Origin: Streptomyces sp. NBC_00513
GTDB lineage: Bacteria; Actinomycetota; Actinomycetes; Streptomycetales; Streptomycetaceae
Assembly: GCF_041431415.1 (NCBI RefSeq)
Contig: NZ_CP107845.1
Coordinates: 5,766,001-5,830,000, forward strand
Reading direction: 5' to 3'
DNA: 64,000 bases
Under the pieces are notes generated by a model. It did not search any database and was not told the origin of the DNA. It saw only the letters and a list, made by a program, of their open reading frames with translations. A program made the position numbers and the translations under genes. Positions 2,399 through 62,825 of this stretch are shown one piece after another; within the stretch, counting starts at the first letter, position 1; each line of letters opens with the position of its first letter.

Positions 2399-2961
2399 TG
2401 GCGGGTGACGGGGACCTGGAGGTCTCGCCGACGGCGGTCAAGAACATCCAGGACGGTCTGCGGGCGGCGATCGGGGAGTTGCGGGAGTCGGGGGACGCGG
2501 CCGGTGCTTCGCAGGGTGCGGGGTTCGAGAATCTGTCGATGACGGGGATGGAGGCCGGGCACGCGGGTCTGGCGACGGACTTCGAGGATTTCTGCGAGCG
2601 CTGGGAGTGGGGTGTGCGGAGTCTGGTGCAGAACGCGAGCACCCTCGCGCAGTCGTTGGGGATCGCGGCGGGGACGGTGTGGGAGGAGGAGCAGTACCTC
2701 CAGGGCTCGTTCAAGGTCGTGGCGAACGCCGCGTACGGCAATCCGCACGCCTCCGAGGACGAGATCGAGCAGAAGTCCTGGGGCGACATCTTCTCCGCGG
2801 ATGCCTACAAGCCCGATTACAGCCCGGAGTCCTTCCAGAAGAGTGCTGAGGACATCGAGAAGACCTGGTCGGACACCGGGGACCAGCTCACCTCCACCGG
2901 GAAGATCGGTTCGCTGAAGGACCTGTTGGAGCAGGCGGAGCGTGACGGGGGCGGTCGCTGA
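2398..2961 (+). CDS. Small helical protein, WXG100-like partner of the RHS toxin
   Basis: This 187-residue protein has no confident family match by eye. The first 100 residues look like a helical hairpin of WXG100/ESAT-6 type: it starts VSPTAVKNIQDGLRAAIGEL, and a helix containing WEWGVRSLVQNASTLAQSLG follows. The C-terminal half is acidic and rich in Asp, Ser and Lys. The start at 2398 overlaps the SseB-like stop by one base, and the stop overlaps the RHS start by one base, so the three genes behave as one translationally coupled unit. It is plausibly a secretion partner or chaperone for loading the RHS protein onto a type VII system. That is inference; no ESX core component is in the window. 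Confidence 0.7.
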   Translation: MAGDGDLEVSPTAVKNIQDGLRAAIGELRESGDAAGASQGAGFENLSMTGMEAGHAGLATDFEDFCERWEWGVRSLVQNASTLAQSLGIAAGTVWEEEQYLQGSFKVVANAAYGNPHASEDEIEQKSWGDIFSADAYKPDYSPESFQKSAEDIEKTWSDTGDQLTSTGKIGSLKDLLEQAERDGGGR

Positions 2962-32706: not shown

Positions 32707-32815
32707 CGGCCGGGTCGCCCCGGGTTCGGGTTGGTGAACGGCCGGACGAGATCCACGTAAACTGGTGGGTCGGTCGTCCGGCCGTTCCCTTTTCAGCTTT
32801 TGGAGTCTCCCCACC

Positions 32816-34147
32816 ATGACCGAGCAGATCGAGAAGCAGTCACTGGTCGGGGAGGAGTACGAGGTCGAGGTCGGCCCCGTCGCGCACGGAGGCCACTGCA
32901 TCGCCCGCACCGCCGAGGGTCGGGTCCTGTTCGTCCGCCACACCCTGCCCGGCGAGAAGGTCGTCGCCAAGGTCACCGAAGGCGACGTCGACTCCCGCTT
33001 CCTGCGCGCCGACGCCATTACCGTCCTGGACCCCTCCAAGGACCGCGTCGAGGCCCCCTGCCCGTACGCCGGCCCCGGCAAGTGCGGCGGCTGCGACTGG
33101 CAGCACGCCAAGCCGGGCGCCCAGCGCCGGCTCAAGGGCGAGGTCGTCGCCGAACAGCTGAAGCGCCTCGCCGGCCTCACCCCGGAGGAAGCCGGCTGGG
33201 ACGGCACGGTCATGCCCGCCGAAGGCGACAAGCTGCCGGCCGGCCAGGTACCGCAGTGGCGCACCCGGGTCCAGTTCGCGATCGACGACGACGGCCGGGT
33301 GGGCCTGCGGAAGCACCGCTCGCACGACATCGAGCCGATCGACCACTGCATGATCGCCGCCCCCGGCGTCAGCGAACTCGGCATCGAACAGCAGGACTGG
33401 CCCCAGATGGCGTCGGTGGAGGCCATCGCCGCCTCCGGTTCGAACGACCGCCAGGTGGTCCTCACCCCCCGCCCCGGCGGCCGACTGCCGCTCGTCGAAC
33501 TCGACAAGCCCGTCTCGGTCCTGCGCGTCGAGGAGAAGGACGGCGGAGTCCACCGCGTCCACGGCCGCCCCTTCGTCCGCGAGCGCGCCGACGGCCGCAC
33601 CTACCGCGTCGGCATGGGCGGCTTCTGGCAGGTCCACCCGCAGGCCGCCGACACCCTGATCAAGGCCGTCATGCAGGGCCTGATGCCGCGCAAGGGCGAG
33701 ATGGCCCTCGACCTCTACTGCGGCGTCGGCATCTTCGCGGGCGCCCTCGCCGAACGCCTCGGCGACACCGGCGCGGTACTCGGCATCGAGTCGACGAAGC
33801 GCGCCGTCGAGGACGCCCGCCACAACCTGACCGACTTCCCGCGGGTCCGGATCGAGCAGGGCAAGGTCGAGCAGATCCTCCCGAAGACCGGCATCACCGA
33901 GTGCGACCTGGTCGTCCTCGACCCGCCCCGCGCCGGCGCCGGCAAGCAGACGGCCCGCCAGGTGGCCGGCCTCACCCCGCGCCGCATCGCATACGTGGCC
34001 TGCGACCCGGCGGCCCTGGCCCGCGACCTGGGCTACTTCAAGGAGAACGGCTACAAGGTGCGCACGCTGCGCGTCTTCGACCTCTTCCCGATGACCCACC
34101 ACGTGGAGTGCGTGGCGATCCTGGAGCCGGTGCGCGAGGACGCGTGA
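32816..34147 (+). CDS. TRAM-domain class I SAM-dependent RNA methyltransferase (RumA/TrmA type)
   Basis: This 443-residue enzyme has an N-terminal TRAM domain (residues ~8-65, including VAHGGHCIARTAEGRVLFVR), Cys ligands of the [4Fe-4S] type in PCPYAGPGKCGGCDWQH, the SAM-binding motif LDLYCGVGIFAGAL, and the m5U methyltransferase motifs DLVVLDPPRAGAG and YVACDPAALARDL. It is expected to form 5-methyluridine in rRNA or tRNA. The catalytic nucleophile is likely the Cys of YVACDPA. ATG 32816 is preceded by TTTTGGAG. It stands alone between KimA and the convergent LysR gene. Confidence 0.92.
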   Translation: MTEQIEKQSLVGEEYEVEVGPVAHGGHCIARTAEGRVLFVRHTLPGEKVVAKVTEGDVDSRFLRADAITVLDPSKDRVEAPCPYAGPGKCGGCDWQHAKPGAQRRLKGEVVAEQLKRLAGLTPEEAGWDGTVMPAEGDKLPAGQVPQWRTRVQFAIDDDGRVGLRKHRSHDIEPIDHCMIAAPGVSELGIEQQDWPQMASVEAIAASGSNDRQVVLTPRPGGRLPLVELDKPVSVLRVEEKDGGVHRVHGRPFVRERADGRTYRVGMGGFWQVHPQAADTLIKAVMQGLMPRKGEMALDLYCGVGIFAGALAERLGDTGAVLGIESTKRAVEDARHNLTDFPRVRIEQGKVEQILPKTGITECDLVVLDPPRAGAGKQTARQVAGLTPRRIAYVACDPAALARDLGYFKENGYKVRTLRVFDLFPMTHHVECVAILEPVREDA

Positions 34148-37756: not shown

Positions 37757-37840
37757 GTGGTGCACCGGATTGGCGGAAACGTAGGCTCCTGAGCATCGGG
37801 CGGCAGACATTCGATGGCCCGAATTAGCGAAGGAAGGCCG

Positions 37841-40800
37841 ATGCTCGTAACACGCCAGCTCCCGTTGTCCGCCTATCAGCGAGACATTTGGGCTGCCGAG
37901 TCCACCGCGCCGGGTGACCCCCAGTTCAACGTGGTCATTCATGAGCGGCTGGTCGGCGTTGTCGACGTGGAACACCTGATGGAATCCTTGGAAGGGGTTC
38001 TCCGGAACAACGACGCGTTCTCCCTGCGCTTCGACGAGCAGGACGGTATTCCCTGCCAGTGGGTGGCCGGGGAGGCGGAGCGGGAGGAGTCGGGGCCCTG
38101 GGCCGAGTACGTCGACCTCTCCGACGAACCCGATCCCGCGGCGGCCTGTGCCGCGTGGCGCGAAAGCGCCCTCGGCCGCCCGTTCACGTTGCGTCGTTCG
38201 CGTCTGTTCACGGCCGTGGTGCTGCGGGAGGGCCCTTCGGTCGTGCACGTGCACCTGACCGCCCACCATCTGATCGCCGACGCCTGGGCCCTGAACCAGG
38301 TCACCCTTCAGCTCTGGGACCGTCACGGCCGCGGCGACGGGGCGGGCCCCGCCGCGCCCTCGGTGCTCTCGCTCCTGGCGGCCGACGACGCGTACCGCGC
38401 CTCCGCCGCGTTCGACGAGGACCGGGCCTGGTTCCGGCAGGCCCTGACCGGGGTGCGCCCCGCGCTGTTCACCCGCCGGGCCGCCGTGAAGGCGGGCGGT
38501 GAACGGGCCCGGGCCCGGTACGGCTTCACCGTGGACGCCGAGCTCGTCCGCCGGGTCCGCGAGCGGGGCGGATCGCCCTTCGCCTACCTCGCGGCCGCCT
38601 TCGCCGCCTACTTCACGCGCGTGCACCGTACCGAGGAACTGGTGCTCGGAGTCCCCTTCCTGAACCGCCACTCGGACGAGCAGCGCGCGACCGTCGGCCA
38701 GGTCGCCAACAGCCTCCCGCTGCGCGTGCCCGTCGGCTCCGCGGACACCCTGCACGCGCTGGCCGACACCGTTCGCCGCGGCACGCGGGAGATCCGCGCC
38801 CACGAACGGCTCGCGCTCGGCGACGTGTTGCGCGACCTGCCGGTCGCCGGTGGCGGGTCCCGGCAGCTCTTCGACATCACCCTGTCCTACCTGCGCCACC
38901 CGCGCCCCGCCGCTCCGGCGGACGGCGTCGCCCCCGTCTCGACCGTGCTGGCCCCCGTCCACCACCAGGACGCCCTGTCGGTGATGGTCCACGCCTTCGA
39001 CGACGACGCCGCGCTGCGCGTCGACCTCGACTACGCCCTCGACGTCTTCGACGAGGACCACCCCATCGCCGCCGTCGCCGGCCACCTGCTGCGACTGCTC
39101 GACGCCGCGCTCACCGAGCCGGAGCGGCCGGCGGTACTGCTGCCGCTGCTCGACAAGGTCGAGGCCGAGGAACTCGCCGAGCTCGAACAGGGGCCCCGGG
39201 TCCCGTACGCGAGTGACCGGACCGTGCATTCCCTGATCGCCGAGCAGGCCGCCCGCACCCCGGAGCGGATCGCCGTCACCGGCGCCGCCGGGGCTCCCGC
39301 GTTGACCTACGGCCGGCTCGACACCCGCGCCGATCAGGTGGCTCGAGCGCTGCGCGCGCACGGCGTGGAGGTCGGGGACCGGGTGGCCGTGCTCATGGAC
39401 CGTTCGCCGGACCTGATCGTCGCCCTGCTCGGCGTGCTGAAGGCCGGCGGGGCCTACGTACCGGTGGACCCCGGCTACCCGGCCGAACGCATCGCCTACC
39501 TGCTCGCGGACAGCCGGGCCAAGGTCGTCCTCGCCGACCGCGACACCGACACCGGCGCATACACGGACGCGTACACCGACCCGCACACGGGCACGGGCAC
39601 AGGTACGGACGGCGCCGGCGACCCCGTGCCCGTGCTGCGTCCGGCCGACCTGGCCGACGGTCCGGATCTGGCCGACGGTCCGCATCTGGCCGACGGTCCG
39701 GATCTGTCGGACGGTCCGGGGGAGCCCCTCCCCGACGCGGCCACCGCCCGCGACCTCGCGTACGTGATCTACACATCCGGTTCGACCGGCCGCCCCAAGG
39801 GCGTCATGGTCGAGCACCACTCGGTGGTCAACCGGCTCGCCTGGATGCAGCGCACGTACCCGGTCGGCGAGGGCGACGTCCTGCTCCAGAAGACACCCAT
39901 CTCCTTCGACGTCTCCGTGTGGGAACTGTTCTGGTGGGCGATCGAGGGCGCGACCCTCGCCCTGCTGCCCGTCGGCGGCCAGCGCGATCCCCGCGGGATC
40001 CTGCGTTCCATCGCCGAACAGGGCGTCACCACCCTGCACTTCGTCCCTTCCATGCTCGGCCCGTTCCTCGATCTGCTGGAGGACCGGCCGGAGCTGCGCG
40101 CCGAAGCGGCCTCCCTGCGCCAGGTGTTCTGCAGCGGCGAGGCGCTGCCCGCCGCCCGCGTCGAGCAGTTCCACCGCGTGTTCGGCGGCCTCGGCGACGG
40201 AGCACCGCGCCTGGTCAACCTGTACGGGCCCACCGAGGCCACCGTGGACGTCTCGTACCACGACTGCCGTGTCGCGACCGATGGCCGGGTCCGGCGCGTG
40301 CCGATCGGCCGGCCCGTGGACAACACCTCCCTGTACGTCCTGGACGCGCACGGCGCGCGGCAGCCCGTCGGGGTCCCGGGGGAGCTGTGCATCGGCGGTG
40401 TCCAGGTCGCCCGCGGCTATCTGGGGCGCCCGGACCTGACCGCCGAGAAGTTCACCGACGACCCCTTCGCCCCGGCCGGCGGCCGTCTGTACCGCACCGG
40501 TGACCTGGCCCGTTGGCTGGCCGACGGCACGCTGGAGTACCTGGGCCGAATCGACGGCCAGGTCAAGATCCGCGGCAACCGGGTCGAGCTCGGCGAGGTG
40601 CAGAACCGGCTGGCCTCGCTCACCGGGGTGCGGGACGCGGTCGTCGTCGACCACCGGTCCGGGAGCCGCGGGACCCTGCTGGTCGCCTACTACGTCGCGG
40701 ACTCGGACCTCAGCCCGGCCGCCCTGCGCTCCGAACTGGCCTCGGCCCTGCCGGAGTTCATGGTGCCCTCGCACTTCATCCGGATCGACGCGGTCCCGCT

Positions 40801-43800
40801 CACCCCGAACGGCAAGGCCGACCGTCGGGCCCTGCCGGCCCCTTCGGCCACCTCCGGGCGGCAGGAGTACACGGCCCCGCGCAATGCCACCGAGGAGACG
40901 ATCGCCGCCGTCTGGGCCGAGGTCCTGGAGGCGGAGCGGGTGGGGATCCACGACGACTACTTCGCGCTCGGCGGAGACTCCATCACGATGCTGCGCATCC
41001 GGGCCCGCGCCGAGAAGGCCGGGATCCTGTTCTCGTTGACCGACCTGGTGCAGCAGCCGACCGTCGCGCAGCTCGCCGCCCGGTCGGTGACCGGCGGGGC
41101 GAGCGCCGGGGCCACGCCCGCGCTCGAACCCTTCGCCCTGGTGTCCGGCGTGGACCGGGCCCGGCTGGAAGGCCGAGCCGACGCCTACCCGCTCACCCGG
41201 CTCCAGCTCGGCCTGCTCTACCACAGCCGGGCCGAACAGCACTCGGCCGTCTACCACGACGTGTTCCAGTACAGCCTCACGGCCCCGTGGGACGAGCAGG
41301 GGCTGAGGCGCGCGTTCGAGGCGCTCGTCGCCCGGCACCCGGTGCTGCGTTCCTCCTTCGACCTGGGTTCGTTCTCCGAGCCGCTCCAGATCGTCGACCA
41401 CCGGGTGACGGGCGGCTTCGACGTCGCGGACCTGCGTGGACGTCCCGAGACCGAGGCGCTCGCCGCGATCGAGGCCCACGTGGACGAACGCCGCTACCAC
41501 CGCTACGACTTCGAGAGCGCTCCGCTCTACCACCTGCGGGCCCACGTCCGTGACGAGACGCTGGAGCTGGTCCTCAGCTTCCACCACGCGATCCTCGACG
41601 GCGGCAGCGTGGCCACTCTGGTCGCCGAGCTGCTGCGGGACTACCTGCACGGGCTGGGGCTGCCCATTGGCGCGGTGGCCGAGACCGCCCTGCCCTCGGC
41701 GGCGCTCCACGTGCGCGCCGAGCGGGAGGCGTTGGAGTCGGACGCCGCGCGCACGTTCTGGCGCGAGCGGCTGAAGGACGCCCCGCTGCTGCGGCTGGAG
41801 GCGTTCCGCGGCCACGAGGCACCGGGGCCGGACGGCCAGATCACCCGGATCGTCGATCTGCCGGACGAACTCACGCTTCGACTGGGCGAGTTCGCCCGCG
41901 AGCGGTCCTTGCCGGTGAAGTCTGTGCTGTTCGCCGCGCACTGCCTGACCCTGAGCCTGTTTGCCGGCTCGGCGGACATCACCACCGGTCTCGTCACCCA
42001 CGGACGCCCCGAGGTCGAGGACGCCGACCGGATCGCCGGCCTGTTCCTCAACACCATGCCGGTGCGGCTCGGCACCGCCGCCGACAGCTGGGCCGACGTG
42101 GTCCGGGCCGCCTTCCGCCAGGAGCAGCAGAGCCACGCCCACCGGCGCTACCCGCTCAGCGCGATCCAGGAGGACCGGGGCGCCACCGTCCTGGAGACGG
42201 CCTTCAACTACATCCACTTTCGGCAGTTGGCCGCGGTCTTCGAGCTGCCCGGCGTCGAGTCGCTGTCCTTCCGCACCTGGGAGGAGACCAACTTCCAGTT
42301 GCTGGTCAACGCCATGACCGACCCGGTGGACGGGTCCGTGCGGCTGCGGCTGGACCATCACGGGCAGACCTTCACCCCGACCCAGGCGGACCTGTACGCC
42401 GAGCGGTTCACCGCGATCCTGGACCGGCTGGTCCATCACCCGGACGAGGCACCGGACTTCGGCTTCCTCGTACCGGCGGGCGCCGACCTCGAAGCCACGC
42501 CGGCGCTCGCCTCCACGGCCGCCCCGGCGATCAGCTCCACGGCCGCCCCGGCGGTCGACGGCGGGCCGCCGGACGTGGTGCGCGCCGTCGCGGCGCAGAG
42601 CGCCCGGACCCCGGACGCCACCGCCGTGGTCTTCGGCGAGCGCCGCTGGACCTACGCCGAACTCGTCGCGTCCGCCGACCGGGTGGCCCGCGAGCTGATC
42701 GCGCTCGGGTCGCGGCCCGGCGACCGGATCGGCATCGCGATGGACCGCTCGCCCGAGACGATCGCCGTCATCCTCGGCGTGATGAAGGCGGGGGCGGCGA
42801 CCGTTCCGCTGGACGTCAGCTACCCCGTGGACCGGCTGACCGCCATGGTCGAGCAGGCCCGCCCGTTCCGGATCATCGCGAACGCCGCCCACCGGTCGGT
42901 GCTCGGCTCGCCGGCATCGGTGCTGCTCGCCGAGGACGTGTTCGGCGAACCGGGGACGGACGGGACGGCCGGGACCGGCGGCTCGGGTGGCACGGACGGC
43001 GCCGGCAGCGCGGCCGAGGAGGCCGGGCGCCCCTACCTGCCCCGGATCCCGGCGGAGGTCACGGACGAGATCACCCCGGACTCGCTCGCCTACATCCTGT
43101 TCACCTCCGGCTCCACGGGCGCGCCCAAGGGCGTGGCCATGCCGCACCGTTCGCTGGCCCACCTGGTGGCCTGGCAGAACTCCGTCCCGAGCGGGGTGGT
43201 CGGCGGGGTCACCGCCCAGTACGCGCCACTCAGCTTCGACGTCTCCTTCCAGGAGATCTTCTCCACCCTCGCGGGCGGCGGCACCCTGCTCGTGCTGTCG
43301 GAGGAGGAACGGCGCGACATGCCGGGGCTGCTGCGCCTCCTGGACCGGGCCGGTGTCGAACGGATCTGCCTGCCCTACGTGGCGCTCCAGCAACTGGCCG
43401 AGACCGCCGACGCGCTCGGCCTGGCGCCCCGGGCGCTGAAGGCGCTGCTCTCCTCGGGCGAGCAGCTGCGCGTCACCGACGAGATACGCCGGCTGTGCGC
43501 GGCCCTGCCGGGGGTGATCCTGGAGAACCAGTACGGGCCCACCGAGTCCCACGTGATCACCGTGCACACGATGCAGGGCGACCCGGCGGCCTTCCCCGCC
43601 ATGCCCCCCATCGGCCGGGCCATCGCCGGTTCGGCGGTGCACGTCCTGGACTCCCGGCTGCGGCCGGTCCCCACCGGGGTGCGCGGCGAGCTGTACCTGG
43701 CCGGGGCCTGCCTGGCCGAGGGGTACGTGGGGCGCCCGGACCTGACCGAGGAGCGGTTCGTGCCGCACCCCTCGCCGGCCGCCGCGGCGGCGGGTGAGCG

Positions 43801-45295
43801 CCTCTACCGGACCGGCGACCTGGGCTTCGTCCTGCCCGGCGGCGACGTGGTGTGCCTGGGGCGGGCGGACGCGCAGGTCAAGGTGCGCGGGTACCGGGTG
43901 GAGCCGGCCGAGGTGGAACTCGCCATCACCCGCTTCGCGTCCGGTCACCCCGGTATCGCGGAGGCGGCCGTGGTGGCCCGTCGCCGCGAGGGCAACGACT
44001 CGTTCCTCGCCGCGTTCCTGACCGGTGAACCGGCGGGCGCGGACCTGAAGCTGCTGCGCAAGCAACTGCGGACGGTCCTGCCCGACTACATGATGCCCTC
44101 GCACTTCGAGTGGGTCGCGGACCTGCCGCTGACCCCGAGCGGCAAGCGCGACGACGCGGCCCTGCGCGGCGCCCCGCTGAGCGTCTCCGCGACGGCGGAC
44201 ACCTCGGCGGCGCCGCGCGACGCGTACGAGCAGACCCTGTCCGAGATCATCGGGGACCTGCTGCAACTGCCCGCGCCGGGCGTCCACGACAACATCTTCG
44301 ACCTCGGTGCGACCTCGCTGACGGCGATGCGTCTGGTGGTCCTGATCGAGCAGCGCTACGGGATCAACGTGCCGCTCTCGGAGTTCGTCTCTGCGCCGAC
44401 GGTCGCGGAGTTGGCTTCGCGGCTGCGTTCGGGCGAGGCGATGACCGCCTTCGACCCGCTGGTGCCGATCCGTCCGGCCGGCGCGAAGCGGCCGATGTTC
44501 TTCGTCCACCCGATGGGTGGGAACGTGCTCTGCTACGTCCGTTTCGCCAAGTACCTGCCGGACGACCAGCCGTTCTACGCCCTCCAGGCGGCGGGCGGCG
44601 ACCCGGGCACCGAGCCGCTGCGCAGCGTCGAGGAGATCGCCGCCAGTTACATCGAGGCGCTGCGCCGGGTCCAGCCGAGCGGCCCGTACGCGATCGGTGG
44701 CTGGTCGTTCGGCGGGTTCGTCGCCTTCGAGATCGCGCGCCAGTTGCGGGCGGCGGGCGAGGAGATCCAGCGGCTGGTGCTGCTGGACACCACCGCGCTG
44801 AACCCGGGGCGCCGGCTGACCACGAACGACGACGCGCTGCTCGGCTGGTTCTTCTGGGAGCTGCTGTGGCTGCGGCGCGGCGGTGACTCGCCCCTGGAGC
44901 TGATCCCGGACCGGCTGACGACGCTGGAGGAGAAGTTCGACTTCATCGCGCAGCTCGCCATCGACGAGGGCGTGCTGCCGGCGGGGAGCACGGGGGCCGT
45001 CGTACGGCGCCTGTTCCACGTGTACGAGGCCAACTGGAAGGCGGCGTTCGCCTATCGGCCCGAGGTGGTGGACCAGGACATGGTCCTCATCCACGCCGCC
45101 GAGCCGCTGCCGGGCGTACTGAACTCCATGCACACGGCGATCGAGAGCATGCACGCGGACCCCAGCAACGGCTGGCGCGAGCGCACCGGCGGTGAACTCG
45201 ACGTCGTGGACGTACCCGGTGACCACCTGACGATCATGGAGGAGCCGTACGTGGCCCACATGGTCCGGGTCGTCACCGATCTGATCGGACACTGA
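37841..45295 (+). CDS. Bimodular nonribosomal peptide synthetase, C-A(Ser)-PCP-C-A-PCP-TE
   Basis: This 2484-residue NRPS has C1 (about 5-430, motif HHLIADAW at 142-149), A1 (about 455-1000, TSGSTG near 645, FDVSVW at 689-694, Lys992), PCP1 (Ser1047), C2 (about 1115-1540, HHAILDGGS at 1248), A2 (about 1575-2110, FDVSFQ at 1799-1804, Lys2102), PCP2 (DLGATSL, Ser2159) and TE (GGWSFGG, Ser2289; late His in PGDHLTIME). Reading pocket positions against GrsA gives A1 = DVWHFSLVDK, the Ser code, and A2 = roughly DVQCLSQVIK, which shares DVQ with Pro codes. C1 has no upstream carrier, so it probably takes an acyl-CoA or acyl carrier donor. The expected product is an N-acyl-Ser-Pro-type dipeptide released by TE. 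ATG 37841 has AAGGAAGG upstream. The next start is one base after its stop. Confidence 0.93.
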   Translation: MLVTRQLPLSAYQRDIWAAESTAPGDPQFNVVIHERLVGVVDVEHLMESLEGVLRNNDAFSLRFDEQDGIPCQWVAGEAEREESGPWAEYVDLSDEPDPAAACAAWRESALGRPFTLRRSRLFTAVVLREGPSVVHVHLTAHHLIADAWALNQVTLQLWDRHGRGDGAGPAAPSVLSLLAADDAYRASAAFDEDRAWFRQALTGVRPALFTRRAAVKAGGERARARYGFTVDAELVRRVRERGGSPFAYLAAAFAAYFTRVHRTEELVLGVPFLNRHSDEQRATVGQVANSLPLRVPVGSADTLHALADTVRRGTREIRAHERLALGDVLRDLPVAGGGSRQLFDITLSYLRHPRPAAPADGVAPVSTVLAPVHHQDALSVMVHAFDDDAALRVDLDYALDVFDEDHPIAAVAGHLLRLLDAALTEPERPAVLLPLLDKVEAEELAELEQGPRVPYASDRTVHSLIAEQAARTPERIAVTGAAGAPALTYGRLDTRADQVARALRAHGVEVGDRVAVLMDRSPDLIVALLGVLKAGGAYVPVDPGYPAERIAYLLADSRAKVVLADRDTDTGAYTDAYTDPHTGTGTGTDGAGDPVPVLRPADLADGPDLADGPHLADGPDLSDGPGEPLPDAATARDLAYVIYTSGSTGRPKGVMVEHHSVVNRLAWMQRTYPVGEGDVLLQKTPISFDVSVWELFWWAIEGATLALLPVGGQRDPRGILRSIAEQGVTTLHFVPSMLGPFLDLLEDRPELRAEAASLRQVFCSGEALPAARVEQFHRVFGGLGDGAPRLVNLYGPTEATVDVSYHDCRVATDGRVRRVPIGRPVDNTSLYVLDAHGARQPVGVPGELCIGGVQVARGYLGRPDLTAEKFTDDPFAPAGGRLYRTGDLARWLADGTLEYLGRIDGQVKIRGNRVELGEVQNRLASLTGVRDAVVVDHRSGSRGTLLVAYYVADSDLSPAALRSELASALPEFMVPSHFIRIDAVPLTPNGKADRRALPAPSATSGRQEYTAPRNATEETIAAVWAEVLEAERVGIHDDYFALGGDSITMLRIRARAEKAGILFSLTDLVQQPTVAQLAARSVTGGASAGATPALEPFALVSGVDRARLEGRADAYPLTRLQLGLLYHSRAEQHSAVYHDVFQYSLTAPWDEQGLRRAFEALVARHPVLRSSFDLGSFSEPLQIVDHRVTGGFDVADLRGRPETEALAAIEAHVDERRYHRYDFESAPLYHLRAHVRDETLELVLSFHHAILDGGSVATLVAELLRDYLHGLGLPIGAVAETALPSAALHVRAEREALESDAARTFWRERLKDAPLLRLEAFRGHEAPGPDGQITRIVDLPDELTLRLGEFARERSLPVKSVLFAAHCLTLSLFAGSADITTGLVTHGRPEVEDADRIAGLFLNTMPVRLGTAADSWADVVRAAFRQEQQSHAHRRYPLSAIQEDRGATVLETAFNYIHFRQLAAVFELPGVESLSFRTWEETNFQLLVNAMTDPVDGSVRLRLDHHGQTFTPTQADLYAERFTAILDRLVHHPDEAPDFGFLVPAGADLEATPALASTAAPAISSTAAPAVDGGPPDVVRAVAAQSARTPDATAVVFGERRWTYAELVASADRVARELIALGSRPGDRIGIAMDRSPETIAVILGVMKAGAATVPLDVSYPVDRLTAMVEQARPFRIIANAAHRSVLGSPASVLLAEDVFGEPGTDGTAGTGGSGGTDGAGSAAEEAGRPYLPRIPAEVTDEITPDSLAYILFTSGSTGAPKGVAMPHRSLAHLVAWQNSVPSGVVGGVTAQYAPLSFDVSFQEIFSTLAGGGTLLVLSEEERRDMPGLLRLLDRAGVERICLPYVALQQLAETADALGLAPRALKALLSSGEQLRVTDEIRRLCAALPGVILENQYGPTESHVITVHTMQGDPAAFPAMPPIGRAIAGSAVHVLDSRLRPVPTGVRGELYLAGACLAEGYVGRPDLTEERFVPHPSPAAAAAGERLYRTGDLGFVLPGGDVVCLGRADAQVKVRGYRVEPAEVELAITRFASGHPGIAEAAVVARRREGNDSFLAAFLTGEPAGADLKLLRKQLRTVLPDYMMPSHFEWVADLPLTPSGKRDDAALRGAPLSVSATADTSAAPRDAYEQTLSEIIGDLLQLPAPGVHDNIFDLGATSLTAMRLVVLIEQRYGINVPLSEFVSAPTVAELASRLRSGEAMTAFDPLVPIRPAGAKRPMFFVHPMGGNVLCYVRFAKYLPDDQPFYALQAAGGDPGTEPLRSVEEIAASYIEALRRVQPSGPYAIGGWSFGGFVAFEIARQLRAAGEEIQRLVLLDTTALNPGRRLTTNDDALLGWFFWELLWLRRGGDSPLELIPDRLTTLEEKFDFIAQLAIDEGVLPAGSTGAVVRRLFHVYEANWKAAFAYRPEVVDQDMVLIHAAEPLPGVLNSMHTAIESMHADPSNGWRERTGGELDVVDVPGDHLTIMEEPYVAHMVRVVTDLIGH

Positions 45296-45296
45296 G

Positions 45297-46496
45297 ATGA
45301 CGCGGAAGGCGATGGCGCGGAACATGACGCGGAAGAAGAAGGCCCTGGTCGTCGGAGCGGGCATCGGCGGACTCACCGCCGCCGTGGCGCTGCGCGAGGC
45401 GGGTTTGGACGTCGAGGTGTACGAGCGGGCGGGCGAGCTGCGGGCCGCCGGTTCGGGGCTGTCGGTGATGAGCAACGCCATCGCCGCCCTGGACTCCCTG
45501 GGCGTGGGCATCGACCTGGCCAAACGCGGCCGGGTGCTGCGCTCCTATCACGTGAAGACGGCCACCGGCCGGCTCATCCGGGAGTTCCCCTTCCCGGAGA
45601 TCATCGAACGCCTGGGCGTGCCCAGCGTGCTGATCACCCGGGCGGAACTCCAACACGCCCTGCTGGAGGCGGCGCAGGGCATCCCGCTGCACCTGGGCGC
45701 GGCGGCGACCGGATTCACCGCGGAGGGGGAGCCCGGCGAGGGGGTCGAGATCACCTTCGACGACGGCACCTCCGCGCACGGGGACGTGCTGATCGGGGCC
45801 GACGGCTTCAACTCGGTGGTGCGCCGGCAACTGGTGGGGCCCGAGGACTCGCAGGACAGCGGATACGTGTGCTGGCTCGCGGTGATCCCCTTCGAGCACC
45901 CGCGGTTCACCCCGGGGTCGGTGACCCACTTCTGGGGCAGCGGGAAGCGGTTCGGGCTCGTGGACATGGGCGCGGGGCGACTGTACTGGTGGGGCACGAA
46001 GAACATGCCGGCCGAGCTGTCGCGGGACTGGAAGGGCGGCAAGGCGGAGGTCCTGCACGCCTACGACGGCTGGGCCGACGAGGTGCGCCAGGCGATCCTC
46101 GCCACCCCCGAGGAGTCGATCATCGCGGTGCCCTCCCGGGACCGGGCGTTCCTGGAGCGCTGGGGCCGGGGGCCGGTGACCCTGCTCGGCGACGCGGCGC
46201 ACCCCATGCTCACCAGCCTGGGCCAGGGATCGGGCATGGCGATCGAGGACGCGGTGGTGCTGGGCAGGGCGCTGGCGGGTGCGGGTGACCTGCCGCGAGC
46301 GCTGCGCCGGTACGAGGACGAGCGCCGCGAACGGACCCGGGGCATGGTCGCCGCCTCGCGTGGCATCAGCTCCTTCGAGCAGTCGGAGGACCCGATCCGC
46401 CGGCCGGTCCGGGACGCCTACTTCCGGTTCATGCCGCAGCGCAGGCTGACGCGCACGCTGGAGGACTCCCTGACCTTCCCGGCGGTGGCCGGATGA
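45297..46496 (+). CDS. FAD-dependent monooxygenase (PHBH-type, Baeyer-Villiger candidate)
   Basis: This 399-residue flavoprotein has the dinucleotide-binding motif LVVGAGIGGLTAAVALREAG (residues ~17-36), the middle DG motif region DVLIGADGFNSVVR, and the FAD ribityl motif LLGDAAHPMLTSLGQGSGMA. No signal peptide is seen. It starts one base after the NRPS stop and overlaps the SDR gene by 4 bases, so it is part of the pathway. In legonmycin, pyrrolizixenamide and brabantamide pathways a monooxygenase of this class follows the bimodular NRPS and performs Baeyer-Villiger oxidation that leads to the pyrrolizidine or an oxidised bicycle. That assignment is inferred from architecture. Confidence 0.88.
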   Translation: MTRKAMARNMTRKKKALVVGAGIGGLTAAVALREAGLDVEVYERAGELRAAGSGLSVMSNAIAALDSLGVGIDLAKRGRVLRSYHVKTATGRLIREFPFPEIIERLGVPSVLITRAELQHALLEAAQGIPLHLGAAATGFTAEGEPGEGVEITFDDGTSAHGDVLIGADGFNSVVRRQLVGPEDSQDSGYVCWLAVIPFEHPRFTPGSVTHFWGSGKRFGLVDMGAGRLYWWGTKNMPAELSRDWKGGKAEVLHAYDGWADEVRQAILATPEESIIAVPSRDRAFLERWGRGPVTLLGDAAHPMLTSLGQGSGMAIEDAVVLGRALAGAGDLPRALRRYEDERRERTRGMVAASRGISSFEQSEDPIRRPVRDAYFRFMPQRRLTRTLEDSLTFPAVAG

Positions 46497-47410
46497 GTAC
46501 CGCCGATCGCAGGAGGAAGACCGTGTCCGTCGTTCCCTTCCGTGCCCCACTGTCCCCGCGCGGCCGGTCCGTGCTCGTCACCGGGGCCTCCTCGGGGCTG
46601 GGCCGGGCCTGTGCGCTGGGCCTGGCGGAGGCCGGGTTCCGGGTGTTCGCCGGCGTCCGCAAGGAGGCCGACGGCCCGGAGTCGACCGGTTCGGCGGGGG
46701 CGTTCGGCGCCATCACGCCGGTGCGGGTGGACGTGACCGACGAGGCGTCGGTGGCCGAGGCCGCCGAGCGGATCTCGGGCCTGGTGGGCGAGGACGGGCT
46801 GTGGGGGCTGGTGAACAACGCGGGCATCTGCGTCTCCGCGCCCCTGGAGTGCGTCTCGCCGCAGCGGCTGCGCGAGCAGTTGGACACGAACGTGGTGGGA
46901 CAACTCGCCGTCACCCAGGCGTTCCTGCCGATGCTGCGGCGTACCCGGGGCCGGGTGGTCAACGTGACCTCGGGGCTGGGCAGCGTGGCGATCCCCTTCC
47001 TCGGGGCCTACGCGTCGGCGCAGTTCGCCAAGGAGGCGCTGACGGACGTGCTGCGTCGTGAGCTGCGCCCGCTGGGCGTGGACGTGGCCCTGGTGCAGCC
47101 GGGCGCGATCATGACGCCGATCTGGGGCAAGGTGTCCGTGGCCGCCCGGTCGGCCATGGACGGGGTGCCCGAGCACATCGCGGAGTTGTACCGGATCCCG
47201 TTCAACCGGTTCCTGCACCACAACGAACAGCAGGCCCGTGCGAGCGAGACCCGTCCCGAGGACTTCGCGGAGACGGTCCGACAGGCGTTGACGGCCGCCC
47301 GCCCGCGGTCGCGCTACCGGGTGGGCTCCGACGCCCGCAAGGTCAGCGTCCTGGCGCGGGTGCTGCCCGATGCCGCGCTCGACCGCTACCTGCGTCCGAT
47401 CACGGAGTGA
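46493..47410 (+). CDS. SDR-fold protein with substituted catalytic lysine
   Basis: This 305-residue protein has the classical SDR Rossmann start LVTGASSGLGRACA (residues 29-41), the NNAG motif at 108-111, catalytic-type Ser160 in VNVTSGLG and Tyr173. In the YxxxK motif the lysine is replaced by glutamine: the sequence is YASAQFAKEA, with Gln177 where Lys is expected. Unless Lys180 compensates, normal oxidoreductase activity is doubtful and the protein may bind cofactor or substrate only. It overlaps the monooxygenase gene in ATGA, so it is expected to act in the same pathway. A terminator-like hairpin lies about 200 bases downstream. Confidence 0.85.
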   Translation: MSTADRRRKTVSVVPFRAPLSPRGRSVLVTGASSGLGRACALGLAEAGFRVFAGVRKEADGPESTGSAGAFGAITPVRVDVTDEASVAEAAERISGLVGEDGLWGLVNNAGICVSAPLECVSPQRLREQLDTNVVGQLAVTQAFLPMLRRTRGRVVNVTSGLGSVAIPFLGAYASAQFAKEALTDVLRRELRPLGVDVALVQPGAIMTPIWGKVSVAARSAMDGVPEHIAELYRIPFNRFLHHNEQQARASETRPEDFAETVRQALTAARPRSRYRVGSDARKVSVLARVLPDAALDRYLRPITE

Positions 47411-47799
47411 CGGACCGCCGGTAAGGGTCCATAGGGCCCTGGAAGTCGTACAGATCCGGCCAGTTGGCACACCCGTCGGAGCCCGTCCGGCGATCGGTTC
47501 ACGCCATGTCGTGGCCGAGAGTATCGAGTTGGGCGGCATGTGAGCATCGTCATGGTTTGCTCGCGGCTCCGGCGGGTGGGTGCGGCTTCCCGGGCCTGGG
47601 CCGGGATTCGTCCCGCGGAGTGGAGCGCGGCGCTCCGCCCACCCCGCGGGTTTCGGCCCCACCCCTGTGAAGGGGCCGTTAATTCCGTACATGACCGGAC
47701 TGCGCCGTGGCCGCAAACGGCCGATTTAGTGTGATCGCCGAGGCCTTCCGAATCGGCGGTCCGGACCGGACACCGACCCGTGAGACAAGGATGAGGATC
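47411..47799. other. Intergenic region between the NRPS operon and the paaN operon
   Basis: 389 bases without a supported gene. It holds a nested hairpin at 47612-47650 that may end the NRPS operon. A small hairpin GGCCG-CAAA-CGGCC lies at 47709-47722, just before the A/T-rich GATTTAGT, and the paaN promoter presumably lies around there. Confidence 0.5.
47612..47650 (+). terminator. Nested hairpin, probable terminator of the NRPS operon
   Basis: The outer stem is CCCGCGG (47612-47618) with CCGCGGG (47644-47650). The inner stem is GGAGCG (47622-47627) with CGCTCC (47631-47636). TTT follows the right arm. It is 200 bases after the SDR stop. Confidence 0.55.
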
Positions 47800-49575
47800 A
47801 TGGCGCCCATCGTGCGGCCCGTCCCCGACCTCCGCGACGCGACAGCCCAACCGGCTGGACCGAGCGCGGTGAACCAGTTCCTCGCCCGGCACGGCGCCAC
47901 CCTCGACCGTGCCCGCGAGGCCGTCCGCACCCGTGAACACTGGTCGCCCTACTCCGAGGACCCGCAGGACCCGGCGGCCTACGGACCGGGGGCGGTCGCC
48001 GCCGGGGAGGCGGCCCACCGCGCGCTGCTCGGCCGACCGCTGGAACTCGGCCAACCCGGCCGGGACGGCACGGTGGGCCCGGACCCGGAGAGCGGCGGTG
48101 AACGCTCTCCGTTCGGCGGCCTGTTGGGGATCTCCTACGCGCACTGCGACCCCGACGTCCTGCTGCCCGCCATGACCGCCGCCCTCCCGGCCTGGCGCGA
48201 CGCCGGCCCCGAGGCGCGCGCGGCCGTCTGCGCGGAGATCCTCCACCGGATCAACGCGCAGAGCTCCGCCTTCGCGTACGCCGCCGTCCACACCAGCGGC
48301 CACAACTTCCTCATGGCCTTCCACGCGGGCGCCGTGCACGCGCAGGACCGCGGCCTGGAGGCGGTGGCCCGCGCCCTGGAGGAGCAGACGCGGCTGCCCG
48401 CCCGCGCGACCTGGCGCAAACCCCTCGGCGACGGGCGCACCATCACCTTGGACAAGACCTTCACCGTGGTGCCCAGGGGCGTCTCCCTGGTGATCGCCAA
48501 CAGCGTCTTCCCCACCTGGAACAGCTATCCGGCCCTCTTCGCCTCCTTGGCCACCGGGAACCCCGTCCTGGTCAAACCGCACCCGGCGGCCGTGCTCCCG
48601 CTCGCCCTCACCGTGCGCACGGCCCGCGAGGTGCTCGCCGAGGCCGGCTTCCCCCCGGACCTGGTGTGCCTGGCGCCCGAGCATCCCGGCGAGGGCTCGG
48701 CGCGACACCTGGCCCTGCGTCCGGAGGTCCGCCTCGTCGACTACGCGGGCGGCACCGGCTTCGGGACCTGGCTGGAGACGCACGCCCGCCAGGCCCGTGT
48801 CCTCACCGCCGGCTCCGCGGTCAACAGCCTGCTCGTGGAGTCGACCGCCGACTACCGGGACATGCTGGCGAACCTGGCCTTCTCGGTCTCCCTGTACAGC
48901 GGTCAACTGTGCACCAGCCCGCAGAACCTGCTCGTCCCGCGCGCCGGCATCACCACCGACGAGGGCCACAAGACCTTCGAGGAGGTCGTCCGTGACCTGG
49001 GGGGCGCGCTCGACACGCTGCTCGCCGACGACGCCGAGGCCTGCGCCGTCCTGGGCGCGCTCCTCTCGCCCGCCGTGCGGGGCCGCCTGGAGCGCGTGAT
49101 GGCCGGGGAGGCCGGCCCGGTCGCGGTCCCCTCCCGCCCGGTGCGCGACCCTGACCACCCCGAAGCGGTCGTGCGCACCCCGGCCGTGGTGACCCTCGAC
49201 GCCGCCCGAGCCGCCGACCTGTCGACGCTGCTCACCGAGTGGTTCGGCCCGGTCGTGCTGGTCGTCGCGGTGGACTCCGTCGCCGACGGCGTCGAGCTGG
49301 TCGCCCGGACCACCCGCGAGTGCGGCGCGCTGTCCGTCGGGCTGTACTCGACCTCGCCCGAGGTCGAGACCGCGATGGCCGGGGCCTGCGCCGAGGTCGG
49401 GGTGATGCTGTCGGCGAACCTGATGGGCGACTGGTACATCTCCCAGTCGGCCGTCTACTCCGACCTGCACGGGACGGGCATGAACCCGTCGGGGAACGCG
49501 GTGTACTGCGACACCACCTTCGTGACGGAACGTTTCCGCACGGTCGGGGTCCGGCGCTACGGCGGTTCGTCGTGA
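47800..49575 (+). CDS. paaN: PaaN-type aldehyde dehydrogenase
   Basis: This 591-residue aldehyde dehydrogenase has an N-terminal region typical of PaaN and the ALDH fold with VVPRGVSLVIANSVFPTWNS, GNPVLVKPHP, and catalytic Cys371 in SGQLCTSPQN. In phenylacetate degradation related proteins oxidise the ring-opened aldehyde, but no other paa genes are visible here, so the substrate may instead be an amine-derived aldehyde made by the DAO-family oxidase downstream. In-frame ATG 47791 is possible; 47800 has the better spaced purine tract. Its stop overlaps the LuxR-type regulator start in GTGA. Confidence 0.82.
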   Translation: MAPIVRPVPDLRDATAQPAGPSAVNQFLARHGATLDRAREAVRTREHWSPYSEDPQDPAAYGPGAVAAGEAAHRALLGRPLELGQPGRDGTVGPDPESGGERSPFGGLLGISYAHCDPDVLLPAMTAALPAWRDAGPEARAAVCAEILHRINAQSSAFAYAAVHTSGHNFLMAFHAGAVHAQDRGLEAVARALEEQTRLPARATWRKPLGDGRTITLDKTFTVVPRGVSLVIANSVFPTWNSYPALFASLATGNPVLVKPHPAAVLPLALTVRTAREVLAEAGFPPDLVCLAPEHPGEGSARHLALRPEVRLVDYAGGTGFGTWLETHARQARVLTAGSAVNSLLVESTADYRDMLANLAFSVSLYSGQLCTSPQNLLVPRAGITTDEGHKTFEEVVRDLGGALDTLLADDAEACAVLGALLSPAVRGRLERVMAGEAGPVAVPSRPVRDPDHPEAVVRTPAVVTLDAARAADLSTLLTEWFGPVVLVVAVDSVADGVELVARTTRECGALSVGLYSTSPEVETAMAGACAEVGVMLSANLMGDWYISQSAVYSDLHGTGMNPSGNAVYCDTTFVTERFRTVGVRRYGGSS

Positions 49576-50885
49576 ACTCCACCCTCACCGGCACGCCCCT
49601 GCGCGGCCGCGAGCGCGAGATGCGGCTGATCCGCGAGGTCCTGGAGCGCGGCCTGCGCGGCGGCTCCGCCGTCGTGGCCGTCGAGGGCATGCCGGGCATC
49701 GGCAAGACCCGGCTGCTCCAGGAAGCCGCCGCCCTCGCCGCCCGCCTCGGCTACATCGGCGGGAACCGCCCCGACGCCGGCCGGCGCGCCGCACCCCACA
49801 CACCGCCCGCGCCGGCGCGCCGTGTCCGCGGCCGGGCCGGGAAGTGCCACGCGCCCGCCGGCCCCACCCTCGTCCTCCTCGACGATCCGCGCCGGACCCC
49901 GCACGGGGCACACGCGCCGGGCGTCCTTCCCGAACCGCTCCCGGCCGGACCCACCCGCGAACGACCCGGCGGCGACCCCGTGGTGTGGCTGGTGACCCAC
50001 CGGCCGGGCGAGGGACCGCTGCTGCCGGGCGCTCTCGCCGGGCGCAGCGAGCGGTTGCCGCTCGGCCCGCTCGGGCCCTCGTCGACGCTGGCGCTCGCAA
50101 GGGACCTGCTGGGCGCGACGCCCTCACCCTCCCTGGTCCAGCTCGTCGACCGGGTGGGCGGCCACCCCCGGCTGCTGATCGAACTGCTGACCGGGCTCGG
50201 GGAGGAGGGCGGCCTGGAGTTCGTCGACGACGAGGTCCGACTGCGGACCCAGCGGCTCCCGGCCCGCCTGGTCACCCGGGTACGCGCCACCCTGGGGCGC
50301 TTCTCGCCGGCCTGCCGCCAACTGCTGCACGTGGCGGCGGTGTTGGGTGACGAGGTGGTGTACGAGGACGTCGCGTTGATGCTGCGGACCTCGGTCGCGG
50401 CCCTGCTGCCCGCGCTGGAGGAGGTCGAGGCGACCGGCGTCGTGCGCAACGACGGCGTCCGCGCCGCCTTCGCCAACCCGCTGCTGCGCCGGGTCATCAC
50501 CGACTCGATGCCCGACTCGCTGAGACTGTCCCTCCAGCGGGAGGCGGTCGCGCTGCGGGCCGCGTACCGCGAACGGCGCGAGCCGCACCTCGGCATCTGG
50601 CCGGCGCCGCCGGTCGTGCCCACGGCGGCGGAGGGGCTGCGCGAGGCCCCGGCCGCCGCCGGCTCCGGGCTGAACGAGCAGCAGCGGATCCTCGTCGGGC
50701 TGGTGGGGGAGGGGCTGACCAACCAGCAGATCGCCCGGCGCCTGGCCCTGTCCCCGCACACCGTCAACTACCACCTGCGCAAGCTGTACAAGGCCTTCGG
50801 CGTGAGTTCCCGGATCGACCTGCTGTCGGCGGTCGAGCAGCCCGGCGCCGCTCCGGGCCGCGGCGCCCACGCCCACCGGAACTGA
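49572..50885 (+). CDS. Compact LuxR-family regulator with AAA-type ATPase domain (LAL-like)
   Basis: This 437-residue protein has Walker A GMPGIGKTRLL near residue 43, a degraded Pro/Arg-rich stretch after it, a Walker-B-like TLVLLDD, an ATPase lid region around residues 160-300, and a C-terminal LuxR HTH with LNEQQRILVGLVGEG and LSPHTVNYHLRKLYKAFG. Large ATP-binding LuxR regulators are normally about 900 residues with a TPR region; this one is roughly half that length, with shortened ATPase and no TPR part. The GTG start at 49572 overlaps the paaN stop. It may control its own operon or the adjacent NRPS cluster. Confidence 0.8.
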   Translation: MNSTLTGTPLRGREREMRLIREVLERGLRGGSAVVAVEGMPGIGKTRLLQEAAALAARLGYIGGNRPDAGRRAAPHTPPAPARRVRGRAGKCHAPAGPTLVLLDDPRRTPHGAHAPGVLPEPLPAGPTRERPGGDPVVWLVTHRPGEGPLLPGALAGRSERLPLGPLGPSSTLALARDLLGATPSPSLVQLVDRVGGHPRLLIELLTGLGEEGGLEFVDDEVRLRTQRLPARLVTRVRATLGRFSPACRQLLHVAAVLGDEVVYEDVALMLRTSVAALLPALEEVEATGVVRNDGVRAAFANPLLRRVITDSMPDSLRLSLQREAVALRAAYRERREPHLGIWPAPPVVPTAAEGLREAPAAAGSGLNEQQRILVGLVGEGLTNQQIARRLALSPHTVNYHLRKLYKAFGVSSRIDLLSAVEQPGAAPGRGAHAHRN

Positions 50886-61280: not shown

Positions 61281-62213
61281 ATGACCACTGTCACCTCTGT
61301 CTCCGTCGCCAAGATCGGCGGCCGCATCGGCGCCGAGATCGGCGGCGTCCGCCTCGGCGGCGACCTGCCCGCCGAGACCGTCGCCGAGATCCGTGCCGCC
61401 CTCCTCGCCCACAAGGTGGTCTTCTTCCGCGGCCAGGACCACCTCGACGAGGCCGGACACGAGGAGTTCGCCCGGCTGCTCGGCGCGCCGGTCGCCCACC
61501 CGACCGTGCCCTCCGCCGACGGCCGGTACGCCCTCGGCATCGACTCCGACCACGGCGCCCGCGCCAACCAGTGGCACACCGACGTCACCTTCGTCCCCGC
61601 CTACCCCGCCTTCTCCATCCTCCGCGCCGTCACCATCCCCCCGTACGGCGGCAACACGCTCTGGGCCAACACCGCCACCGCCTACGCGGGCCTCCCGGAG
61701 CCGTTGCGGGTCCTGGCCGACGGCCTGCGCGCCGTGCACTCCAACGAGTACGACTACGCCGCCCTGCGGCCCGACGCGCTCCCCGAGGCCCTCGCCCAGT
61801 ACCGCGAGGTGTTCACCTCCACCACGTTCCTCACCGAGCACCCGGTGGTCCGCGTCCACCCCGAGACGGGCGAACGCACCCTGCTCCTCGGCAACTTCGT
61901 CCAGCGGATCACCGGCCTCACCGGCCGGGACTCCCGCGTCCTCCAGGACCTGTTCCAGGCGCACGTCGAGAGCCCCGAGAACACCGTCCGTTGGCAGTGG
62001 CGCGCCGGCGACGTCGCGATCTGGGACAACCGCGCCACCCAGCACTACGGCGTCGACGACTCCGACGACCACGAGCGCACCCTGCGCCGCGTCACCGTCG
62101 ACGGCGACGTGCCCGTCGGCCCCGACGGACGCCCGTCCCGCCTGATCAGCCCGGAGACCGTGCCCGACCCGGAGTTCGGCATCGCCTCCGGCGCCTCCTC
62201 CGCCTCCGTCTGA
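61281..62213 (+). CDS. TauD/TfdA-family 2-oxoglutarate-dependent dioxygenase
   Basis: This 310-residue Fe(II)/2-oxoglutarate enzyme carries the facial triad HxD motif NQWHTDVTF (His99, Asp101), the distal His in [11 protein letters not shown] and the 2-oxoglutarate-binding Arg in [12 protein letters not shown]. The overall pattern is that of alpha-ketoglutarate-dependent taurine or alkylsulfonate/sulfate-ester dioxygenases, which release sulfite. GGGAG precedes the ATG. It opens an operon with an FMN reductase, a substrate-binding protein and an ABC ATPase, which supports a role in organosulfur use. Confidence 0.9.
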
Positions 62214-62240
62214 CCCCCCCCGCCGCACAAGGAGAGCCCC

Positions 62241-62798
62241 GTGCCCAAGCTGCTCGCCGTCACCGGCAGCCCCTCCGTCCACTCCCGTACCGCCGTGGTC
62301 GTCGACCAGGTGCTGCGTCGTCTGTCCCACTCCGGGTACGAGACCGCGCACCTCGCCGTACGGGAACTGCCCGCCGCCGACCTGCTCTCCGCCCGCCGCG
62401 GCGAGCCCGAGATCCGCCGCGCGGTGGAGGCCGTGGCCGAGGCGGACGGCCTGATCATCGCCACCCCGATCTACAAGGCCTCGTACACCGGCCTGCTCAA
62501 GGCCTTCCTCGACCTGCTCCCGCAGGACGGCCTGGCCGGCAAGACGGTCCTGCCGATCGCCACCGGCGGCAGCCTCGCCCACGTCCTGACCATCGACTAC
62601 GCCCTGCGCCCGGTCCTCTCCGCGCTCGGCGCCCGACACGTCACCGCCGGCCGGTTCGTCCTGGACTCCGCCGTCGAGCGCGGGGACGGCCCGGACCGGC
62701 TCCGGCCCGAGGCGGAGCTGGACCTGTACCAGGCCGTCGACGAGTTCGCCGACGCGCTGCGCATCGCCCCCGCGGGCGCCCTCACCACCGCTCACTGA
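62241..62798 (+). CDS. ssuE: NADPH-dependent FMN reductase (SsuE type)
   Basis: This 185-residue flavodoxin-like protein begins KLLAVTGSPSVHSRT (phosphate-binding loop) and carries ADGLIIATPIYKASYTGLLK and VLPIATGGSLAHVL, typical of SsuE/MsuE reductases that supply FMNH2 to two-component sulfonate monooxygenases. The start is GTG 62241 with AAGGAGAG upstream. No SsuD/MsuD partner is visible before the window ends; it may lie downstream. The gene lies 27 bases after the TauD-like gene. Confidence 0.88.
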   Translation: MPKLLAVTGSPSVHSRTAVVVDQVLRRLSHSGYETAHLAVRELPAADLLSARRGEPEIRRAVEAVAEADGLIIATPIYKASYTGLLKAFLDLLPQDGLAGKTVLPIATGGSLAHVLTIDYALRPVLSALGARHVTAGRFVLDSAVERGDGPDRLRPEAELDLYQAVDEFADALRIAPAGALTTAH

Positions 62799-62825
62799 CC
62801 CCGTACGCACCGACAAGGACCCGTC

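Follow-up and report, generated by a model that had tools for sequence, protein, structure and literature searches.

The DNA analysed here, referred to as the window, is a stretch of 64,000 nucleotides from the 8.6-Mb genome of Streptomyces sp. NBC_00513 (contig NZ_CP107845.1). At 37841-47410 on its forward strand, the window carries a set of three genes, for a non-ribosomal peptide synthetase (NRPS), a flavin adenine dinucleotide (FAD) monooxygenase and a short-chain dehydrogenase/reductase (SDR). The set is part of a gene cluster that belongs to a widespread and already described type, and whose product is very probably a small alkaloid with two rings. Pathways of this kind have been described as widely distributed (PMC7820566).

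The three genes are tightly packed. A single base separates the stop codon of the NRPS gene (TGA, ending at 45295) from the ATG of the monooxygenase gene (beginning at 45297), the end of which overlaps the start of the SDR gene in the sequence ATGA. Both junctions had been described in the initial annotation of this DNA and were confirmed. Third-position GC content is alike in all three genes (0.94-0.95). The longest open reading frame (ORF) of the NRPS gene spans 37814-45295 (+) and encodes 2493 amino acids; we prefer the start at 37841 (Met10 of this frame), because a better ribosome-binding-like stretch, GAAGGAAGG, is found just upstream of it. For the monooxygenase, a later Met at 45312 or 45324 is a possible alternative start. 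The order thioesterase (TE)-monooxygenase-SDR was seen again in four other Streptomyces genomes, with 66-95% protein identity across the three, and is thus not due to chance.

Table 1. Features of the cluster, with positions in the window
Feature	Position	Strand	Basis
Bimodular NRPS, C1-A1-T1-C2-A2-T2-TE	37841..45295	+	Pfam domains, specificity codes, motifs; longest ORF from 37814
Probable LgnC/PxaB-type Baeyer-Villiger FAD monooxygenase, 399 amino acids	45297..46496	+	FAD_binding_3 (4e-24), triad, clade
SDR with lysine-shifted active-site helix, 305 amino acids	46493..47410	+	adh_short, motif, model
PaaN-family aldehyde dehydrogenase paralogue specific to the cluster subtype	47707..49575	+	TIGR02288 PaaN_2
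LuxR-type regulator ORF	49239..50885	+	GerE and AAA_16
DAO-type FAD oxidoreductase dedicated to the cluster subtype, 481 amino acids	50998..52443	+	PF01266

Domain order and specificity codes of the NRPS

Pfam matches to the NRPS (Condensation twice, AMP-binding twice, PP-binding twice and Thioesterase once) give the order condensation (C), adenylation (A), thiolation (T), C, A, T and TE, which confirms that the C-A-PCP-C-A-PCP-TE architecture (PCP, peptidyl carrier protein) reported previously lies in one protein. The motifs HHLIADA, HHAILDG, LGGDS, LGATS and GWSFGG are all intact. Specificity codes were compared among 26 NRPSs, namely those of the window, 16 Streptomyces regions, one plasmid and 8 named genome contigs; two of the loci (L031 and L058) come from the same strain, so that 25 strains are represented. 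The A1 code of the window, DVWHFSLVDK, which we take to specify serine, was found in 25 of these NRPSs, and the remaining one reads DVWHFSLIDK. The A2 code of the window, DVQCLSQVIK, is close to that for proline, with S and Q at positions 301 and 322. The textbook proline code is DVQ-x-IAHVVK, and the departure from it counts against a simple assignment to proline. All 26 NRPSs share the form D[VI]Qx[LVIC][SC][QH][VLA][VILA]K. Judged by the codes, A2 of the window therefore appears to carry not the textbook proline code but its lineage's own version of a near-proline code. An A2 specificity clearly other than proline, which the initial annotation had named as a finding that would speak against its reading, was not seen, although the match to proline is to a variant of the code. 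In three of the 26 NRPSs (L031/L058 and L057, two of these from one strain), A2 reads DVQHCSHAAK, and the second amino acid may differ there.

The unusual A2 code would also fit a domain that accepts an analogue of proline, such as azetidine-2-carboxylate or methylproline, in which case the product would be a ClpP-directed bicyclic carbamate of the azabicyclene/clipibicyclene type rather than a pyrrolizidine. The azetidomonamide/azabicyclene (aze), clipibicyclene and metaze (mta) systems likewise combine a bimodular NRPS with a FAD monooxygenase; the azetidomonamide cluster has an SDR gene as well (PMC9040856) and has been described as similar to the mta cluster (PMC13386464), and a 59% relative of the window SDR is found in Pseudomonas sp. 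ICBG1301. However, a scan of 34 of the 43 ORFs in the window, which included each selected ORF from 28163 rightwards (the remaining 9 are all to the left of 28160) and did not extend to other parts of the genome, gave no match to an azetidine-synthase-like methyltransferase, clpP or FabH; its sole methyltransferase match was an RNA-methyltransferase-like ORF (32765-34147). In addition, the proline-using pyrrolizixenamide pathway of Xenorhabdus stockiae is reported to be without an AzeJ homologue (PMC11794875), and the NRPS of X. hominickii (L061), with the A1 code DVWHFSLVDK, has an A2 code (DVQYISQVIK) only two positions from that of the window. Since the proline domain of PxaA accepts azetidine-2-carboxylate (PMC11794875), the A2 code alone cannot decide between proline and azetidine. 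Taken together, we regard this alternative as unlikely.

Plasmid searches with A2 and TE were made for a proteobacterial relative, and none stood out among the 40 matches listed of 174 and of 83 records, respectively. Among these matches, a Streptomyces plasmid alone was prominent (59% and 64%, the next matches being at 43% and 38%). This 968-kb linear plasmid (L042; NZ_CP030772.1, Streptomyces sp. YIM 121038) also carries the NRPS-monooxygenase-SDR set, flanked by a group II intron maturase, transposases and an integrase, surroundings that suggest movement.

Active site and phylogeny of the monooxygenase

YWWxTKN and GDAAH have been named as motifs of enzymes resembling LgnC of the legonmycin pathway (PMC7820566), and mutation of LgnC showed that H200, Y219 and W221 are required (PMC11457151). 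The window monooxygenase has YWWGTKN at 230 and GDAAH at 298, and its H211, Y230 and W232 form a triad with the same spacing as that of LgnC. Among 25 loci (the genus set, the plasmid match and the window itself), 20 have the triad; the other five encode proteins that are 37-39% identical and have no TE or T2 stretch inside their 1.5-kb flanks. A scan of genome contigs, from which 80 loci were kept out of a larger number (some of those kept that have no triad being short), gave 8 loci with the triad. A complete NRPS lay directly upstream in exactly these 8 and in none of the 72 triad-less loci (Fisher p 3e-11). Similarly, an NRPS was found near the monooxygenase in 16 of the 17 Streptomyces regions fetched.

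In a tree of 164 tips (sampled as 20 of the first 120 homologues and then 41 of 57 new proteins, with L061 replaced by P0244), the window monooxygenase falls within a clade of 87 tips with a support of 1.0, of which 86 have the triad. The enzymes of X. szentirmaii and X. hominickii are in the same clade, and all 77 triad-less relatives (5 of the 25 loci and 72 of the 80) lie outside it. The reference cluster for pyrrolizixenamide A, BGC0001873, comes from X. szentirmaii (PMC13208338), and we infer that P0254, the protein of this species in the clade, is its PxaB; the comparison with named enzymes rests on those of Xenorhabdus. Thus, a placement far from the Baeyer-Villiger enzymes, the other outcome that the initial annotation had set against its own reading, was not observed. 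The triad was also present in all 57 new proteins of the last homologue search. All 9 proteobacterial enzymes for which the motif was read (from Xenorhabdus, Photobacterium, Vibrio, Pseudomonas and Chromobacterium) read YWWGTAN instead of YWWxTKN, so the published motif is too narrow. A low-GC motif pattern for proteobacterial relatives gave no match across the genome contigs.

Several observations weigh against assigning the enzyme to the LgnC/PxaB type or qualify the counts given above. The exact YWWxTKN motif is missing in 34 of the first 120 homologues, and one member of the clade, P0113, is without the Trp of the triad. Isolated A- or C-domain-like matches, at 24-35%, occur in 4 of the 72 triad-less loci (L071, L112, L120 and L125). 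In L038 (G004), the NRPS and the monooxygenase are on opposite strands, and L041 (G048) holds only a piece of the monooxygenase, of 146 residues, in which the triad is present, without the NRPS order. The window enzyme is 49% identical to the Xenorhabdus monooxygenases, and at this distance a carbamate outcome cannot be told from a pyrrolizidine outcome by the sequence. Finally, the best general profile and PDB matches are to HpxO-type and other class A hydroxylases; the PDB entries are titled flavoprotein monooxygenase, and we take them to be HpxO.

These last matches would be expected if the enzyme were an ordinary aromatic hydroxylase (of the HpxO or 3-hydroxybenzoate 6-hydroxylase type) that merely lies beside an NRPS. 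However, the scores are far under the cut-offs of those models (237 bits for the urate hydroxylase HpxO profile, with a cut-off of 500 bits), and the presence of the LgnC triad, the exclusion of the triad-less relatives from the clade and the recurrent NRPS in the Streptomyces regions all argue against such a role, which we consider very improbable.

In 6 of 27 triad monooxygenases (L042:13956-16514, L007, L009, L012, L013 and L062), the protein is extended by ~300-470 residues, and the extension in the plasmid case L042 is a condensation/PapA-like acyltransferase domain. Stand-alone genes of a single family, encoding ~450-480 amino acids, are found near the cluster in L031, L033 and L034, and the member in L033 has the same two Pfam matches as the L042 extension.

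A recurrent SDR with a shifted lysine

Of 199 Streptomyces genomes, 13 have a match to the SDR at 1e-60, and all 13 were among the 19 with a triad monooxygenase (one of these, G048, counted with its 146-residue fragment), a co-occurrence with a chance probability of 3e-16 without correction for relatedness. In 11 of the 13 genomes, the two genes lie together in the window or in one fetched region; in G119 and G130, which are draft assemblies, the SDR is on a different contig from the monooxygenase. Among the 8 named contig loci, an SDR is near in 4 and none was seen in 4, including that of X. hominickii. In the azetidomonamide cluster of Pseudomonas aeruginosa, azeE, a probable short-chain dehydrogenase gene, is located beside azeB (NRPS) and azeC (FAD monooxygenase) (PMC9040856). 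Because of azeE and the 13 Streptomyces genomes, the SDR is a usual, though not universal, partner in such clusters, rather than the non-standard addition that it was first taken to be.

The active-site helix of the SDR reads Y173-A-S-A-Q177-F-A-K180, so that the lysine of the YxxxK motif is absent and a lysine is present at Tyr+7 instead. In PDB alignments, Q177 falls on the YxxxK lysine of DHRS9 and 17beta-HSD1, the proteins nearest to the SDR both by sequence and by predicted fold. The TGxxxGxG cofactor motif, NNAG, Ser160 and Tyr173 are retained. Among 17 SDRs of cluster-bearing strains (15 in the same region as the cluster and 2 on other contigs, a 32% SDR-like match in L040 being left out), 16 have Gln and the remaining one has Met at Tyr+4, and all 17 have Lys at Tyr+7. 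The best 120 of 6782 homologues (114 scored by pattern and 6 by eye), which include proteins of Saccharothrix, Actinosynnema and Pseudomonas sp. ICBG1301, have this Gln and Lys without exception, and the Y173...K180 spacing is invariant in an alignment of 26 sequences. The genome of the window gave 79 SDR matches, of which the 30 with the highest scores were taken as background; in all 26 that were readable, one of which has Ser in the Tyr column, Lys is at Tyr+4 and none has it at Tyr+7. A structural model (mean pLDDT 87, pTM 0.85) places Y173, Q177 and K180 on a single helix, 168-194.

Thus, the SDR has the Y-x6-K spacing of divergent, FabI-like enoyl reductases and not the classical YxxxK; InhA also has the FabI-type spacing of Tyr and Lys. 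YX6K has been described for both FabI and FabL (PMC5006077). A FabI-like fold was rejected, since the SDR is classical both by sequence and by predicted fold and has kept the classical Ser, unlike FabI and InhA, and no enoyl reductase was present among the 50 fold matches listed for the model.

The likeliest reading is that the SDR is a putative reductase in which the lysine would be supplied from the next helical turn. Its main rival is a dead pseudoenzyme or a non-redox protein, either a scaffold or a carbamate-handling lyase. The replacement of the YxxxK lysine throughout the cluster strains and the best homologues, when every readable background SDR keeps it, is what such a protein would show, whereas the intact cofactor motif, NNAG, Ser160 and Tyr173, the lysine that is always found at Tyr+7 on the same predicted helix, and the use of this spacing by FabI and FabL weigh against it, so that we consider this rival the less likely of the two. 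A bolder suggestion, which we make only tentatively, is that the SDR represents a new, pathway-dedicated family of classical, 17beta-HSD-like SDRs in which the catalytic lysine has moved by one helical turn (YxxxK to YxxxQxxK). In actinomycete and pseudomonad clusters, this family may catalyse an undescribed step on the bicyclic indolizinone or oxazepine core, either a reduction of the enoyl type or a rearrangement without redox chemistry. In the Streptomyces subtype seen here, it might act jointly with the DAO and the PaaN-like aldehyde dehydrogenase dedicated to the cluster to give a further oxidised, undescribed alkaloid.

Cluster borders, proposed pathway and known relatives

The aldehyde dehydrogenase downstream of the SDR scores 710.7 bits against TIGR02288 PaaN_2 (cut-off, 578.75), and its Cys402 is conserved. 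At 1e-60, a match is found in 198 of 199 genomes, but among the matches listed, an identity of at least 61% is reached in 5 of 199, all with the cluster (the match in G066, at about 59-61%, is a weak case). Identification as the plain core PaaN was rejected, as the core PaaN of this genome is a separate copy, 58% identical. The DAO is nearest to TIGR03329 among NCBIfam models, at 422.6 bits and under the cut-off of 632.8; 4 of the 199 genomes have a match to it at 1e-60, each of them carrying the cluster, and a 67% identical DAO stretch adjoins the SDR in Marinactinospora thermotolerans (L121). The cluster thus extends to the right to about 52443, with the dedicated DAO and the PaaN-like paralogue as members, and the end at 47410 proposed initially was drawn too short. 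Since the first 337 bases of the LuxR-type ORF lie within the aldehyde dehydrogenase gene, the true start of the regulator must be further downstream. A similar stretch is present between the two enzyme genes in L025 and L026. By its position, the regulator may belong to the pathway.

On the left, a major facilitator superfamily (MFS) gene and a hydrolase gene were rejected as members, because both also occur without the monooxygenase. At 1e-150, 14 of the 199 genomes have the MFS gene, and the monooxygenase is missing from 7 of these; the MFS gene of G066, G119 and G127 is distant from the cluster or carried by a different contig. The hydrolase (at 1e-40) is present in 48 of 199, and in G056 the two are adjacent although the cluster is absent. 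The left border is therefore probably between 37646 and 37814. In X. hominickii (L061:11662-13892), a LysR gene and an MFS gene, the latter 43% identical to that of the window, lie downstream of the NRPS-monooxygenase pair, which resembles the left flank of the window, although that flank seems separable in Streptomyces. Elsewhere in the window, a 1553-amino-acid protein with a putative type VII secretion system signal domain and RHS repeats is encoded at 2961-7622 (+), and genes for a TauD-type dioxygenase, an FMN reductase and an NMT1/THI5-like binding protein follow one another at 61281-63857 (+), as in sulfonate uptake.

The domain order, the serine and near-proline codes, the active-site residues, the clade and the co-occurrence of the SDR and DAO with the cluster were observed directly. 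By analogy with described relatives, it is highly probable that the cluster belongs to the bacterial pyrrolizidine/bicyclic-carbamate family, with an enzyme of the LgnC/PxaB type. The first assignment to a related cluster accordingly holds for the bimodular, Ser/Pro-like NRPS with its Baeyer-Villiger enzyme, and fails for the standing of the SDR. Every chemical step in the pathway that we propose is drawn from the literature on relatives, and we infer the product and the roles of the SDR, aldehyde dehydrogenase and DAO. C1 would N-acylate the serine loaded by A1, and C2 would convert the acyl-serine to acyl-dehydroalanine and join it to the amino acid loaded by A2, proline or a close analogue. 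TE would then close a [5+6] dihydroindolizinone, into which the LgnC-type enzyme would insert oxygen (Baeyer-Villiger) to give a [5+7] 1,3-oxazepine carbamate. This carbamate might be kept, or might lose CO2 and collapse to a [5+5] pyrrolizidine. The coupled SDR, with its Tyr/Lys pair in FabI-like Y-x6-K spacing, may then reduce a double bond (C=C or C=O) in either the core or the acyl chain, and the DAO and PaaN-like dehydrogenase may add oxidation or supply the acyl group.

A close parallel is the pyrrolizixenamide system (PxaA/PxaB) of Xenorhabdus, in which a single bimodular C-A-T-C-A-T-TE NRPS (Ser, Pro) is likewise followed directly by a triad monooxygenase. It differs in that no SDR was seen in the X. 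hominickii locus over a distance of 10 kb, whereas the window adds the SDR, the PaaN-like aldehyde dehydrogenase and the DAO. The legonmycin system (LgnA-D) of Streptomyces sp. MA37 has the LgnC-type motifs and triad in common with the window, and its NRPS makes an indolizidine intermediate. However, it uses Thr, and its NRPS is split between LgnB (A-T) and LgnD (C-T-C-A-T-TE), with a stand-alone, type II TE-like LgnA (PMC8748450, PMC11457151), in contrast to the Ser-specific and intact bimodular NRPS here; the initial annotation was thus inexact in ascribing one bimodular NRPS to legonmycin. No report of a shifted SDR lysine in such pathways, or of a subtype with the aldehyde dehydrogenase and DAO, was found in the open-access literature, most subscription papers not being covered.

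The reactive products of this family are bicyclic carbamates, which are unstable, and pyrrolizidines, and inhibition of the bacterial protease ClpP has been described for some of them (PMC11457151, PMC13386464). Clusters with the DAO and PaaN-like genes form a subtype, the product of which may well differ from the known ones. The dedicated SDR, with a relocated lysine that is identical in all 120 best homologues, is a concrete enzyme to assay. It would show either that the FabI-like spacing of the active site arose a second time or that the SDR fold can serve a non-redox function.

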